From assembly GCF_023028105.1 (NCBI RefSeq), contig NZ_CP095491.1:1178001-1242000 (forward strand): a stretch of DNA of 64,000 nt, read 5' to 3'. The DNA comes from Halosolutus gelatinilyticus (GTDB lineage Archaea > Halobacteriota > Halobacteria > Halobacteriales > Natrialbaceae). The position numbers and the translations under genes are program-made. The notes under the pieces were generated by a model. The model did no database searches. It had not been told where the DNA came from and saw nothing but the letters and a program-made list of their open reading frames with translations. This document shows positions 44,680 through 50,517 of this stretch, piece after piece (position 1 is the stretch's first letter; every line of letters begins with the position of its first letter).

Positions 44680-44795
44680 CGACGAGACGTTCGCGCCGCT
44701 CCCTCTTGATGCTGCCGTATGGCCGAGTGAGCCCGGCGACGAGAGCGAACGCGAAGGCGAAGGCTTTTGCGCACCGGCGCGCCAAAACGGACGTA

Positions 44796-46472
44796 ATGAC
44801 CGGAGACGATCGGCTCGAGGAGTCCGAGTCAGCGGAACCGCGATTCAGGGAACCGGTGACTGATGGCGGTGAGCGATCCTCGTCGGATCGAAGATCCGGC
44901 GGCGGGGCTGCAGGCGCCGACGGCGAGGGATCGGAGATTCCTCGAGCAGACGGCGGAGCCGTCGACGACGTCGCGCTCGATCCGTGGGGTTCCTCTAGCG
45001 TCTCCGACTACCGCAAACTGTTCGAGGAGTTCGGCATCGAGGAGTTCGAAGACATCCTCCCCGAGGTGCCGACCCCTCACTACCTGATGCGCCGCGGGGT
45101 CATCTTCGGCCACCGCGACTACGACCCGATCGCCCGGGCCTTGCAGAACGGCGACCCCGCGGCCGTCCTCTCCGGATTTATGCCCACCGGCGACCCGCAC
45201 ATCGGGCACAAACTCGTCTTCGACGAGATCATTTGGCACCAGCGGCGGGGTGCCGACGCCTACGCGCTGATCGCCGACCTCGAAGCGCACTCCGCCCGCG
45301 GGCTGTCCTGGGCGGAGATCGACGAGCACGCGCGCAACTATCTGCTCTCGCTGCTCGCGCTCGGCTTCGATCCCGAAGACGGGGAACTCTACCGACAGTC
45401 AACCAACCGCGAGGTACAGGATCTGGCGTTCGAACTGGGGATCGAAGCGAACTTCTCCGAGCTAGGGGCGATCTACGGCTTCGACGGCGAGACCGACGTC
45501 TCGCACATGCAGTCGGTCGTCACCCAGATGGCCGACATCCTCTACCCCCAACTCGACGAGCCGAAGCCGACCGTCATCCCCGTCGGCCCGGACCAGGACC
45601 CCCACGTTCGGCTGGCGCGGGACCTCGCCGAACGGATGCGCTTTTTCAAAGTGAGCGAGGCCTACGCCAGCTTCGAACTCGACGACGAGGAGCGCGCGCT
45701 CGTCGCGGACTTCCACGATCGGCTCGATCCCGCCGATTTCGACGACGACGATCTGCGCTGCGTCCACGTCGCGGAGGCGATCGAGGGGACGCCCCTCGAA
45801 GACCTCGGCGTCGGCGCGGACGCGCTCGGATCGCTCCTGACGAAACTCGAGGAGGCCGGCATGGAGCCGGTTCGACCCCGAACCCGCTTTTTCGATCGCC
45901 GAGCGACCGACGAGGCGTTCGACGCGCTTATAGCGGCGATCGACGGCGAGAAGCGCGTCTACGAGAGTCACGTCGACGCCTTCGACCTCGACCTCGACGA
46001 GGCCGCGGAGCTCGCCCGGGAGATCGAGGTCGAAAACGGCGGCTACGGCTTCCTGCCGCCGTCATCGATTTACCACCGCTTCATGACCGGCCTGACAGGC
46101 GGCAAGATGTCCTCGTCGATCCCCGCCAGCCACATCTCCTTGCTCGACGATCCCGAGGACGGCTACGACAAGGTGAAGGCGGCGACGACCGGCGGCCGCG
46201 AGACCGCCGAGGAGCAACGCGAACTCGGCGGCCGCGCCGACGAGTGTCCCGTCTACGAACTGTACGCCTACCTCTTGGCCGGCGACGACGACGAGTTCGC
46301 AAAGCGGGTCTACGACGAATGCGTCGGCGGCGAACGCCTCTGTGGCGACTGCAAGGAACAGGCCGCCCAGCTCATGAAAGAGTTCCTCGCGGAGCACCAG
46401 GAGAAACGCGAGGAGGTCGCCGATCTGCTGGAAGAAGCCGACATCGAACTCGAATCGCCGCGCGCGAGGTAG
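44796..46472 (+). CDS. trpS: tryptophanyl-tRNA synthetase
   Basis: 558 residues, class I. The start at 44796 is chosen because cttttg at about 44763 stands at the leaderless TATA distance. The first 85 residues are a disordered acidic extension. The HIGH motif is PTGDPHIGHKL and the KMSKS motif is GGKMSSSIPASHI, with PVGPDQDPHVRLARDLAERM between, as in archaeal/eukaryal TrpRS. The C-terminus ends in GDCKEQAAQLMKEFLAEHQEKRE. It charges tRNA-Trp. The promoter sequence GCTTTTGC is the same as that in front of the pheS leader. Confidence 0.95.
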   Translation: MTGDDRLEESESAEPRFREPVTDGGERSSSDRRSGGGAAGADGEGSEIPRADGGAVDDVALDPWGSSSVSDYRKLFEEFGIEEFEDILPEVPTPHYLMRRGVIFGHRDYDPIARALQNGDPAAVLSGFMPTGDPHIGHKLVFDEIIWHQRRGADAYALIADLEAHSARGLSWAEIDEHARNYLLSLLALGFDPEDGELYRQSTNREVQDLAFELGIEANFSELGAIYGFDGETDVSHMQSVVTQMADILYPQLDEPKPTVIPVGPDQDPHVRLARDLAERMRFFKVSEAYASFELDDEERALVADFHDRLDPADFDDDDLRCVHVAEAIEGTPLEDLGVGADALGSLLTKLEEAGMEPVRPRTRFFDRRATDEAFDALIAAIDGEKRVYESHVDAFDLDLDEAAELAREIEVENGGYGFLPPSSIYHRFMTGLTGGKMSSSIPASHISLLDDPEDGYDKVKAATTGGRETAEEQRELGGRADECPVYELYAYLLAGDDDEFAKRVYDECVGGERLCGDCKEQAAQLMKEFLAEHQEKREEVADLLEEADIELESPRAR

Positions 46473-46507: not shown

Positions 46508-46936
46508 TCAGTACCGACCGATCTCGTCGCCGAGTTCGTCGTTGAGGTACGACCCGATCGCGCCGCCGCCAGTCGCGAACACGACGACGTAGAGCGGGCC
46601 GAACAGCACGGATTCGGGGAAGAATTCGGGAACGAGTCCGTTAGTGAGGAACAGGCCGACCGCTACCACAGCGGCCGCGATCGCACCGGCGAACGCGCCG
46701 ACAACTGCGCCCTCCGTGAGATCGTCCCCTTCGAGATAGCCCGAAACGAGCCCGCCGAACAGCGGCGCGAAGGAGACGAGCGAGAACAGAAACAGCGCGA
46801 GGAGGCCACCGAGCAGCCCGTTGACGGCCGTCGGCCGCCGATCGGAGTCGGTCCGGTCGACGGACCGATCGGTAGTGCGGTCATCGGTGTGATCGTCACT
46901 GACGTCGGATTCGTCGTCCGGATCGGTGTTGACCAT
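46508..46936 (-). CDS. DUF5518 membrane protein
   Basis: 142 residues. An N-terminal disordered stretch rich in Asp, Arg and Ser (about 40 residues) precedes four Gly/Ala-rich helices: VNGLLGGLLALFLFSLVSFA, VVGAFAGAIAAAVVAVGLFL, SVLFGPLYVVVFATGGGAIG and the shorter one near GGLVSGYLEGDD. Haloarchaeal DUF5518 proteins share this layout. The gene is convergent with trpS and divergent from the pheS leader. Function unknown. Confidence 0.75.
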   Translation of the reverse strand: MVNTDPDDESDVSDDHTDDRTTDRSVDRTDSDRRPTAVNGLLGGLLALFLFSLVSFAPLFGGLVSGYLEGDDLTEGAVVGAFAGAIAAAVVAVGLFLTNGLVPEFFPESVLFGPLYVVVFATGGGAIGSYLNDELGDEIGRY

Positions 46937-47024
46937 ACGCGTCTCCTCTCACGTCAGCAGGAGAAACCTTCCGGTTCGAGAGTACGTGACGGCGCGACGA
47001 CGCGATCGGCCGTGGACCACCGCA

Positions 47025-47033
47025 ACGCTTTTG
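47025..47033 (+). promoter_or_regulatory. TATA-like box of the pheS leader transcript
   Basis: cgcttttgc lies about 25-33 nt before the ATG at 47058 and repeats the GCTTTTGC seen in front of trpS. Confidence 0.5.
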
Positions 47034-47057
47034 CTTCGGCCCGAACAGGACTCGCGT

Positions 47058-47144
47058 ATGGCATCCGAACCCGACGTTCGTGCCGGCGTCGCCCGCCCAC
47101 CGCAGCGTCCGCGCCCAGGGTTCGGCTTCTTCTTCGCCCGGTAA
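47058..47144 (+). CDS. Phe-rich putative leader peptide of pheST
   Basis: 28 codons: MASEPDVRAGVARPPQRPRP followed by GFGFFFAR and TAA. Four of the last seven codons are Phe (three consecutive TTC). It stands at the leaderless distance from a TATA-like box and ends 134 nt before pheS. A Phe-codon run at the end of a short ORF directly in front of phenylalanyl-tRNA synthetase is the design of a ribosome-mediated attenuation leader, as in Escherichia coli pheM/pheST. No such system is established in archaea as far as I know. Its stop codon lies inside the first hairpin of the following region. Confidence 0.6.
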   Translation: MASEPDVRAGVARPPQRPRPGFGFFFAR

Positions 47145-47278
47145 CGCCGGGCCGGTGGATCCGCGGGCGCTCACACCGGGTGCGCGCGGCGAAACCGACC
47201 GTTCGCGCGAGCCGTCCGGGTCGTTCGGACGGTATCGGAACCGCTAACTGACCGACACGCAGCCATACGAACAAGCGA
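47135..47278 (+). promoter_or_regulatory. candidate attenuator region between leader ORF and pheS
   Basis: Several G+C-rich hairpins follow the Phe codons: GCCCGG-TAACG-CCGGGC (47137-47153) includes the leader stop codon; CCGCG and CGCGG arms lie further on (about 47161-47189); CCGTCCG-GGTCGTT-CGGACGG (about 47213-47233) is closest to pheS. No U-tract is seen, so control could be by translation or by factor-dependent termination rather than by a classical intrinsic terminator. Confidence 0.4.
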
Positions 47279-48805
47279 ATGCAACTTCCAGCACAACAGG
47301 TCGCGGTCTTAGAGGCCGCGAGCGCGGACGAGGCAACGTCCGTCGACGCCCTCGCCGAGGCGACCGACCTTCCCCCGGAGACCGTCACCGGGGCCGCCTT
47401 CGAACTCGAGGCGGAGGGGCTGGTCGCGGTCGACGAGCGGGTCGACGAAACGATCGCCCTGACCGACGAGGGGCGCGACTACGCGGCGGACGGGCTTCCA
47501 GAGGTGCGACTCCACGAGGCCGCCCTCGACGCCGGCGCCGACGCCGACCCCGTCTCCATGGGGCGGGTCATCGGCGCGTCCGGACTCGACGGGCCGCAGG
47601 TCGACATCGCGTTGTCGAACTACGCCCGGAAGGGCTACGGCGCGATCGACAGCGGCGAGATCACGGCCGATCCCGACGCCGATCCCGCGGCGGACGCGGA
47701 GGCCAACGCGCTCGGCGTGCTCGCCGAGAAGGAGGAGGCGCCGATCGACGCGATCGAGATCGACGACGAGACGCTCGACCAGTTGGAGCGACGCGGCCTG
47801 CTCGAGCGATCGGAGACGACGGTCCGCGAGGTGACCCTGACCGAGCGCGCCGTCACCGAATTGATGGCGGGCATCGAGACCACCGAAACCGTCGGCCAGG
47901 TCACACCCGGACTGCTCACGAGCGGCGACTGGCGCGACGTCGAGTTCGCCGAGTACAACGTCGAGGCCGACGCCGAGCGCGTCGAGGGCGGCCGGGTCCA
48001 CATCCTGCGCCAGACCGCCGAGCGCGTGAAGGACGTTCTCGTCGGCATGGGCTTCCGAGAGATGGAGGGGCCACACGTCGACGCGGACTTCTGGATCAAC
48101 GACTGCCTGTTCATGCCCCAGGACCACCCCGCTCGCACGCACTGGGACCGGTTCGCCCTGGAGCAGCCGACGCACATCGACGATCTGCCCGAGGACCTCG
48201 TCGATCGCGTCGAGCGAGCCCACAAAGAGGGCGTCGGCGAGGACGGCGAGGGCTACCACTCGCCGTGGGACGAGGACTTCGCGCGTGCGCTCGCGCTTCG
48301 CGGGCACACGACCTCGCTGTCGACGCGCTACCTCTCCGGCGAGCAGATCGGCGAGATCGAACCGCCCGCGCGCTTCTTCAGCGTCGAAAAGGTCTACCGT
48401 AACGACACGCTCGATCCGACGCACCTGCTCGAGTTCTTCCAGATCGAGGGCTGGGTGATGGCCGAGGACCTCTCCGTACGCGATCTGATGGGTACCTTCG
48501 AGGAGTTCTACGCTCAGTTCGGCATCACGGACATCGAGTTCAAGCCCCACTACAACCCCTACACCGAGCCGTCGTTCGAGCTGTTCGGCACGCACCCGAC
48601 GACGGGCGAACTCGTCGAGATCGGGAACTCTGGCATCTTCCGCGAGGAGATGCTCGAACCGCTCGGCGTCGACTGCGACGTGATGGCGTGGGGGCTCGCC
48701 TTAGAGCGCCTCCTAATGTTGATGTACGGCTTCGAGGACATCCGCGACATCCACGGCACGCTCTGCGACCTGGACCTACTGCGGAACACGGAGGTGACCT
48801 ACTGA
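47279..48805 (+). CDS. pheS: phenylalanyl-tRNA synthetase alpha subunit
   Basis: 508 residues, archaeal/eukaryal type with a long N-terminal winged-helix region (PAQQVAVLEAASADEATSVD onward, three to four winged helices) that binds tRNA. The class II catalytic core starts near residue 230. Motif 2 is ARFFSVEKVYRNDTLDPTHLLEFFQIEGW and motif 3 is MAWGLALERLLMLMYGFEDIRD; both are intact. The stop TGA shares one base with the pheT ATG (48803-48807), so the subunits are translationally coupled. The upstream region includes the putative Phe leader. Confidence 0.96.
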   Translation: MQLPAQQVAVLEAASADEATSVDALAEATDLPPETVTGAAFELEAEGLVAVDERVDETIALTDEGRDYAADGLPEVRLHEAALDAGADADPVSMGRVIGASGLDGPQVDIALSNYARKGYGAIDSGEITADPDADPAADAEANALGVLAEKEEAPIDAIEIDDETLDQLERRGLLERSETTVREVTLTERAVTELMAGIETTETVGQVTPGLLTSGDWRDVEFAEYNVEADAERVEGGRVHILRQTAERVKDVLVGMGFREMEGPHVDADFWINDCLFMPQDHPARTHWDRFALEQPTHIDDLPEDLVDRVERAHKEGVGEDGEGYHSPWDEDFARALALRGHTTSLSTRYLSGEQIGEIEPPARFFSVEKVYRNDTLDPTHLLEFFQIEGWVMAEDLSVRDLMGTFEEFYAQFGITDIEFKPHYNPYTEPSFELFGTHPTTGELVEIGNSGIFREEMLEPLGVDCDVMAWGLALERLLMLMYGFEDIRDIHGTLCDLDLLRNTEVTY

Positions 48806-50517
48806 TGCCCACCGTCGACATCGACCCCGACGAACTGCGCGAGCTGACCGGCCGCGAGGAGAAAAGCGACGAACAACTCAAGACGGACCTGTTCGGCCTC
48901 GGCCTCGAGTTCGAGGGGCGCACCGAGGGCGGGGCGTTCGAACTCGAGTTCGCCCCCGATCGGCTCGATCGGCTCTCCGTCGAGGGCGTGGCGCGATCGA
49001 TGCGCTACCACTACGGCGATTCGCGCGGCGTTCACGTGCCCTCGACGAATCGGGCGGAGTGGACGATCGTCGTCGACGACTCCGTGCCGGACGAGCGACC
49101 GTACGTCACCGGCGCGGTGATCCGCGACGTCGACCTCGACGAGGACGGCCTGGATTCGCTGATTCAACTGCAGGAAAAACTCCACGCGACGATGGGCCGC
49201 AAGCGCGCGAAGGGCGCGATCGGGATCCACGACCTGACGATGCTGAAAGGGTCCCCGGCCACCGAGGGGAATCCGACGATCGAATACGTCGGCGTCGAAC
49301 CCGAAGGAGACACGTTCGTTCCGCTCGACGCCGATCGAGAGATGACCCCGGCGGACGTGCTCGAGGAGCACCAGACGGGCCGGACGTACGCCGATCTCGT
49401 CAGCGGCTACGAGCGTTACCCAGCGATCTACGACGATATCGGGCTGTTCTCGTTCCCGCCGGTGATCAACGGCCGCCGGACCGAGGTCTCGACGGACTCG
49501 CGGGACCTGTTCGTCGAGATGACGGGCACCGACCAGTGGACGATCGACAAGATGCTTTCCATCGTCTGCTACGCGCTCGCCGCCCGCGGCGCGACGATCG
49601 AGGACGTCGTCGTGGAGTATCCGGACCACGAGCTCGTCCGGCCCGACTTCTCCACGAAGACCAAAACTGTCGCGCACGATCGCATCGAGACCGTTCTCGG
49701 GATCGACCTCGATCCCGACGAGGTCGTCGACCTGGCGGAGCGATCGGGACTCGAAGCCGAGCGGGCGGAAAACCAGGACGGCGACCTCGTCTACGAGGTG
49801 ACGATCCCGCCGTACCGCGTCGACGTACTCCACCCGCTGGACGTCATCGACGACCTGGGGCGCGCCTACGGCTTCAACGACCTCGAGCCGCGCTACCCCG
49901 ACGTCGGCACCGTCGGCGGCCGCCACGAGCGATCGCGCCTCGAGAACGCCGCGCGCACGCAACTCGTCGGCCTCGGCTTCGAGGACCTGCTGAACTTCCA
50001 CATGATCAGCGAGGCGGAGAACTACGATCGGCTCGAGATTTCGCCCGGCGAGGACGTCTACGGCGCCGGCGAGCCCGCGACGATCAAGGAACCCTATAGC
50101 GAGGACTACACGATGCTGCGGACGTGGGTACTCCCGTCGCTGCTGATGGTGCTCGAAAACAACACCCACCGCGCGTACCCGCAGGACCTCGCCGAGATCG
50201 GCTTCACGGCCGAGGTCGACGAGCGCGAAAACACGGGCGTCGACGAGGGGCGGTCCGTGGCGGCCGTCCTCGTGAGCCACGACGCCGGCTACGAGGACGC
50301 CAAAGCGCGACTCCAGGCGCTCGCCCGCGCGTTCGACGTCGACCTCGAGACGCCGCCGACGGACCACCCGACGTTCATCCCGGGTCGGACGGCGGGCGTC
50401 GTCGTCGACGGCGAGGCGGTCGGCGTGATCGGCGAGGTGCACCCGAAGGTGCTCGTCGAACACGACCTCGAAGTACCGGTGTCGGCGTTCGAGTTCGATC
50501 TCGACGCGCTACGGTAG
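48805..50517 (+). CDS. pheT: phenylalanyl-tRNA synthetase beta subunit
   Basis: 570 residues, the length of archaeal PheT. It starts MPTVDIDPDELRELTGREEK. The B3/B4 editing domain (KRAKGAIGIHDLTMLKGSP, FSFPPVINGRRTEVSTDSRDLFVEMTGTD in pieces) is followed by the B5 domain, and the C-terminal catalytic-like domain has VLPSLLMVLENNTHRAYPQDLAEIG. With PheS it forms the (alpha-beta)2 synthetase that charges tRNA-Phe; beta provides editing of mischarged Tyr. The end shows no odd features. Confidence 0.96.
   Translation: MPTVDIDPDELRELTGREEKSDEQLKTDLFGLGLEFEGRTEGGAFELEFAPDRLDRLSVEGVARSMRYHYGDSRGVHVPSTNRAEWTIVVDDSVPDERPYVTGAVIRDVDLDEDGLDSLIQLQEKLHATMGRKRAKGAIGIHDLTMLKGSPATEGNPTIEYVGVEPEGDTFVPLDADREMTPADVLEEHQTGRTYADLVSGYERYPAIYDDIGLFSFPPVINGRRTEVSTDSRDLFVEMTGTDQWTIDKMLSIVCYALAARGATIEDVVVEYPDHELVRPDFSTKTKTVAHDRIETVLGIDLDPDEVVDLAERSGLEAERAENQDGDLVYEVTIPPYRVDVLHPLDVIDDLGRAYGFNDLEPRYPDVGTVGGRHERSRLENAARTQLVGLGFEDLLNFHMISEAENYDRLEISPGEDVYGAGEPATIKEPYSEDYTMLRTWVLPSLLMVLENNTHRAYPQDLAEIGFTAEVDERENTGVDEGRSVAAVLVSHDAGYEDAKARLQALARAFDVDLETPPTDHPTFIPGRTAGVVVDGEAVGVIGEVHPKVLVEHDLEVPVSAFEFDLDALR

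Follow-up and report, generated by a model that had tools for sequence, protein, structure and literature searches.

In bacteria, attenuation by leader peptides is textbook knowledge. In the attenuators of pheST (pheM), pheL and trpL, a short ORF carries a run of codons for the cognate amino acid, a stem overlaps that ORF, and stalling of the ribosome is expected to alter the folding of the RNA. Attenuation of the tnaC type, which depends on Rho, needs no intrinsic terminator, and a ribosome held close to the leader's end could shield the RNA from the termination factor, while in T-box riboswitches the charging of tRNA controls aminoacyl-tRNA synthetase genes. Archaeal transcription is coupled to translation, and archaea possess a termination factor that binds RNA, which raises the question of whether the position of a ribosome controls genes in these organisms, and the element described here makes that question directly testable.

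The open-licence literature on archaeal attenuation, haloarchaeal leader peptides and PheRS leaders yielded no archaeal example, an absence that is not proof, and the remark in the preliminary description of this locus that no archaeal case is established agrees with it. As far as we found, a Phe leader-peptide element is undescribed in archaea. For H. volcanii, Table 2 of Babski et al. 2016 (PMC4983044) gives 16 small ORFs that lie within long 5'-UTRs, among them a 26-aa uORF before pheS (HVO_2948) and a 23-aa uORF before the gene for a tryptophan–tRNA ligase (HVO_A0127). At least in the part of the article drawn on here, these uORFs are treated as small proteins, and their Phe or Trp codons, structure, conservation and regulation are not discussed. 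The same source reports a TSS that precedes the uORF of pheS, so that a transcript start before the leader is already mapped in a genetically tractable species (PMC4983044).

Sequence comparison indicates that the haloarchaeal Phe leader is a real, conserved and structured element that very likely senses an amino acid. Most haloarchaeal genera have kept it, and a Trp counterpart serves as an internal control. The Phe leader shares with the bacterial leader attenuators the short ORF with its cognate codon run and the overlapping stem, but it is archaeal, it would have a leaderless 5' end, in its stem P1 the first part of the ORF pairs with codons adjacent to the control run, and it carries neither a U-tract terminator nor a conserved antiterminator. 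Compared with the tnaC type, it would sense missing charged tRNA instead of the free amino acid, FttA/aCPSF1 being the putative factor. In contrast to the T-box, sensing at the Phe leader would need translation, and the T-box covariance model gave no match in a Rfam scan of positions 46900-47400.

The Phe leader and its distribution

In the window (the whole stretch of DNA analysed, 64 kb), re-reading confirms the 28-codon ORF of the preliminary description, ending in GFGFFFAR with three consecutive TTC codons and stopping 134 nt ahead of the pheS ATG at 47279, and NCBIfam likewise assigns the downstream genes to PheRS alpha and beta, in keeping with the earlier naming of pheST (Table 1). That description also placed a TATA-like box at the distance of a leaderless start. 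The TTTT of the CAACGCTTTTG box begins 29 nt 5' of the leader ATG, a spacing at which a leaderless transcript would begin with the leader, and the claim holds well beyond this genome, with TTTT found 29-30 nt before the leader ATG in 70 of 74 leaders. Just two ATG ORFs of 8-50 codons with an F-x-F-x-F type run occur on both strands of the window, so that 400 nt of a single strand would hold one by chance with a probability of about 0.6%. Moreover, GGNTTYGGNTTYTTYTTY, the DNA pattern for GFGFFF, has a single copy genome-wide (4.76 Mb). Searches of the leader peptide against NCBIfam and Pfam returned no known leader-peptide family. Divergently from the leader, a small protein of the DUF5518 family is encoded on the minus strand (window 46508-46936).

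Table 1. Features of the pheST leader region and of the second trpS gene; positions are those of the window except in the last row.
Feature	Position	Strand	Description
Promoter-like box GCAACGCTTTTG	47022-47033	+	Upstream of the leader ATG
Leader peptide ORF MASEPDVRAGVARPPQRPRPGFGFFFAR*	47058-47144	+	28 codons, ATG 47058, TAA 47142-47144
P1 5' arm CCGAACCC	47065-47072	+	Codons 3-5; pairs with 47118-47125
P1 3' arm GGGTTCGG	47118-47125	+	GFG codons; pairs with 47065-47072
Control codons	47121-47135	+	Four Phe: TTC 47121-47123 and TTC TTC TTC 47127-47135
Local hairpin around leader stop codon	47136-47152	+	From sequence and folding; only part of Natrialbaceae
P2 hairpin	47153-47197	+	3' of leader stop; CGGU/ACCG outer stem, GGA/GAA internal loop, variable inner stem
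P3, strong hairpin before proximal element	47212-47232	+	Folding of 15 loci; sequence not conserved
Proximal element TCGGAACCGCTAACTGAC	47235-47252	+	Putative pheS-proximal promoter or RNA element
pheS	47279-48805	+	Phenylalanine–tRNA ligase subunit alpha; NCBIfam NF003210, 599 bits
pheT	48778-50517 (start codon approximate)	+	Phenylalanine–tRNA ligase subunit beta; NCBIfam TIGR00471, 447 bits
Second trpS (L181)	G000:C1:1258801-1259940	-	Trp-rich leader MTSALAWRWHARSRADSVVATDGAA; about 17 kb past the window end

The locus was compared with others of its kind in a set of 83 haloarchaeal pheS loci, 80 from genome contigs and three of the window's genus, the window included. A recognisable ortholog of the leader is present in 74 of them; in one further locus, from a draft genome (L072), it is frameshifted, and in the remaining eight it is absent. 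A Phe-rich ORF, which had been expected upstream of pheS in close relatives, is thus present in nearly all of these and also across the class. The 74 leaders have 25-48 codons with the consensus M(A/P)xE(S/P)...GFGFFFA and three to five Phe in every case, and the gap between the leader stop and pheS is 103-223 nt in most loci. The first Phe codon, situated inside P1, is TTC in all 74 leaders. At Phe codons 2-4, outside P1, both TTC and TTT are used and Phe is mostly kept, and in the variable middle of the leader, which forms the loop, the gap lengths are nearly all multiples of three. Such third-base variation, along with gaps in multiples of three, represents signs of selection on translation.

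Also, a covariance model (R1) built from the alignment of the leader region was run on 155 class genomes. It matches 123 of these at E<=0.01, spread over 50 of 60 genera, and about 118 at E<1e-5. Nineteen divergent matches that were checked all lie directly upstream of pheS, whereas a twentieth, with E=0.001, lies elsewhere and is spurious. In 18 genomes with a weak or no strong leader match, pheS is present, and in three of them a Phe leader was nevertheless recognised by eye. About a fifth to a quarter of the genomes are without a strong match, so the element is not essential. Outside the haloarchaea, 23 pheS loci of the phylum have no counterpart at a comparable position, and a Phe-run uORF 327-474 nt away, a single match in this set, looks like chance.

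Pairing in the leader RNA

Two structures are conserved in the region. P1 is a 9-bp stem in which leader codons 3-6 pair with the GFG codons just 5' of the Phe run (the ninth pair is broken in this genome); in the aligned loci the RNA of the two conserved peptide ends is complementary, CCGAAYCCC at nucleotides 8-16 to the GGGRTTCGG of the GFG codons. P2 carries the motifs GGYGRA and GAAACCG, which are nearly invariant in the aligned loci. Both are returned by RNAalifold from 64 loci with no structure supplied. By pair counting, 89% of the cells are paired overall and 98% in P1, a pairing that falls to 44-56% when the partner is slid by one column, and there are 115 cells with double changes against 41 in shuffles, none of 500 shuffles being as high. 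In P1, double changes occur in three of the nine pairs; for example, column 13 has UA in 36 loci, CG in 19 and UG in 9, and its pairing is never broken. Moreover, the P1 partners change together along with the amino acids, as in ES/GGA, EP/GGG, Leu/Asp and, in L070, AGC/GCG.

When these changes are placed on the PheS tree, the ratio of concordant to discordant changes is about 3.1:0, 3.0:0 and 1:0 for three P1 pairs and 6.5:0, 5.8:0, 3.6:0 and 1.9:0 for four P2 pairs, with none discordant among the pairs listed. Covariation is strong in the inner stem of P2, and in a strict tree-aware test no single P1 pair is significant by itself. P1 pairing reaches 8.81 of 9 in the natural leaders, and recoding their peptides with the codon usage of pheS gives a mean of 6.33 (maximum 6.57), a gap which means that the pairing is not explained by codon usage. 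Taken with the Phe kept through synonymous change, the covariation of P1 argues that the Phe codons and the RNA stem are both under selection.

Two loci from related genomes, L139 and L140, retain the leader and P1 and have lost P2, P3, the rest of the spacer and the proximal element, pheS being only 35-37 nt past the leader stop and the leader about 120 nt before pheS. This suggests that P1 and the Phe codons form the core and that the role of P2 is auxiliary at most. The losses in these two loci amount to a natural experiment on what is essential.

The preliminary description had proposed two other hairpins, one enclosing the leader stop codon and one just before pheS. Both exist in this genome, but the first is restricted to part of the Natrialbaceae and does not appear in the class-wide RNAalifold consensus, and the sequence of the second (P3) is not conserved. 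Alignment across haloarchaea, suggested there as a check, consequently upholds the short ORF with its Phe run and replaces the proposed hairpins with others as the conserved ones. The same source noted that no U-tract follows, and this is confirmed: between the leader stop and pheS the longest T run is 3 in the 74 loci. Also, folding 71 leaders with ribosome masks on the Phe codons or on the stop codon revealed no conserved alternative pairing, and on this ground a classical terminator/antiterminator switch was rejected, there being neither a U-tract nor a conserved alternative partner for either P1 arm. Set beside a bacterial attenuator, then, the locus has a conserved short upstream ORF with cognate codons (three to five Phe, or Trp at trpS2) and a conserved structure over the control region in the covarying P1 and P2, and is without a mutually exclusive terminator and antiterminator followed by a U-tract. 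For this last reason it is not classed as a classical attenuator of the bacterial type and is only said to work like one.

Other identities for the RNA were considered. P2 was rejected by eye as a K-turn, as its CGG/YGGA...GAAA/CCG loop is without the 3-nt bulge, and a second conserved ORF from the GTG of GGTGGA was discarded by hand, the downstream stop not being in frame across loci. The Rfam scan of 46900-47400 found no known RNA family, giving only HgcF at 14.5 bits, which is chance level. The P1 arms CCGAAYCCC/GGGRTTCGG resemble the halves of the tRNA T-arm (GGGTTCGAATCCC) in swapped order, a likeness that is probably a coincidence.

A candidate attenuation mechanism and its alternatives

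We propose, with a probability of roughly three in four, that haloarchaea control pheST with this element as a ribosome-mediated attenuator responding to charged tRNA-Phe, its output probably being factor-dependent termination or decay. On the comparative evidence the sensor part is well supported, and the sensor reading given in the preliminary description gains from the synonymous change at the Phe codons, the codon-level covariation of P1 and the Trp leader at a trpS paralogue. What we infer from these features is that ribosomes stall, in which direction control runs and how the output arises, the output being the weakest link.

In this proposal, a leaderless transcript would begin at or beside the leader ATG, and a ribosome translating the leader would meet four Phe codons. 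When Phe-tRNA is short, it would stall on these codons and cover the 3' arm of P1, leaving P1 open and P2 intact. When Phe-tRNA is plentiful, the ribosome would reach the stop codon, where its rear edge would clear the 3' arm so that P1 could close, and its front edge would reach the base of P2. The spacings are compatible with these two positions: measured from Phe codon 2, the stop codon is 15 nt away in 59 of 71 loci, and in most loci the distance to the P2 motif is 24-27 nt. A ribosome footprint is about 27 nt, so a stalled ribosome would cover the 3' arm of P1 and spare P2, and one at the stop codon would touch P2. Masked folding of the 71 leaders also predicts that P1 opens and P2 stays under stalling. 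Closed P1, occupying nucleotides 8-16 of a leaderless mRNA, would hinder the loading of new ribosomes, and the roughly 135 nt of RNA upstream of pheS, left unprotected, would then be open to termination of the FttA/aCPSF1 type or to decay, with a fall in pheST; stalling would raise pheST. Polarity in archaea has been attributed to FttA (PMC12548453), and exclusion between the ribosome and FttA has been proposed (PMC8116511, PMC11616081). Reinitiation at pheS from the leader was rejected, as H. volcanii no longer couples translation across more than about 30 nt (PMC12548453) and gaps of 103-223 nt make it unlikely.

As for the output, which the preliminary description gave as possibly translational or factor-dependent, we consider factor-dependent termination more likely than translational control. 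The same Phe sensor could nonetheless act through translation or mRNA stability, the states of P1 and P2 altering access to pheS or its decay with no termination involved. The lack of a U-tract before pheS would fit this possibility, as would L139 and L140, in which the leader stop is only 35 nt before pheS and neither P2 nor P3 exists. We regard it as somewhat unlikely, since pheS is 103-223 nt downstream in most genomes, no conserved pairing reaches its start region, and downstream of the Trp leader a hairpin with a pyrimidine-rich stretch after it looks terminator-like by eye.

A further alternative stems from the proximal element TCGGAACCGCTAACTGAC, which lies about 25-45 nt before pheS, is conserved in most loci, also in those without the leader, and is nearly invariant in many haloarchaea. 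Being promoter-like and just before pheS, it could bypass the leader, and pheST might be driven mainly from this promoter of its own, with the leader transcript as a minor or separate unit. Its persistence where the leader is absent favors this reading. However, the element has no strong likeness to a TATA box nor a typical one, it is absent in L139 and L140, and Table 2 for H. volcanii, in the part used here, marks a TSS at the uORF and no extra one at pheS (PMC4983044), which together make the alternative improbable. A general promoter class was also rejected for it: the genome has one exact copy, at pheS, and the other matches have two mismatches.

Less probable still is autogenous control, in which PheRS itself would bind the P1-P2 RNA and the Phe codons would be secondary; the structured, near-invariant P2 with its GGA/GAA internal loop would be a plausible target, but P2 can be lost, Phe codons 2-4 are kept by synonymous change outside the stems, and a Trp-codon design of like kind exists at trpS2. 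Finally, that the ORF encodes a functional micropeptide, upstream of pheS by happenstance, is very improbable, because the conserved first residues M(A/P)xE(S/P) and GFGFFFA end both include P1 arms whose amino acids co-change with pairing preserved, the central part of the peptide is unconstrained, and all strong matches checked are tied to pheS.

The Trp leader before a second trpS

The uORF before a tryptophan–tRNA ligase gene in the H. volcanii table, in the part of that source used here (PMC4983044), led us to read 30 loci of that trpS paralogue (trpS2). All 30 have a leader-like ORF, with two or more Trp codons in 28 of them (e.g., MTSALGWQWRWEAPSRADSIVAAGDAA), and the genome of the window carries such a Trp-rich leader as well (Table 1). 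In a stem analogous to P1, codons 2-5 of these leaders pair with the codons just 3' of the Trp run, and the paired positions covary. With a Trp run at trpS2 and a Phe run at pheS, the control amino acid follows the synthetase.

The Trp leaders (L171-L200) are followed on the 3' side by a GC-rich hairpin, then by a conserved GCTC(A/C)CTYCG and then by a U-containing pyrimidine run; by eye, the pyrimidine-rich stretch before trpS2 often contains U. From its sequence, this arrangement of hairpin and pyrimidine stretch could possibly suit a terminator, unlike the Phe-leader spacers, where no T run is above 3. More tentatively than for pheST itself, we suggest that haloarchaea may have a class of amino-acid attenuators on leaderless mRNAs, covering at least Phe and Trp, in which a stem linking the first codons with those next to the control run would gate the reloading of ribosomes at the bare 5' end, and FttA-dependent termination would in this way be coupled to the charging of tRNA. 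The main-type trpS (NF008928) lies on the strand of pheS, a short way upstream of it (window 44706-46472), and no Trp-rich leader was seen in front of this gene.
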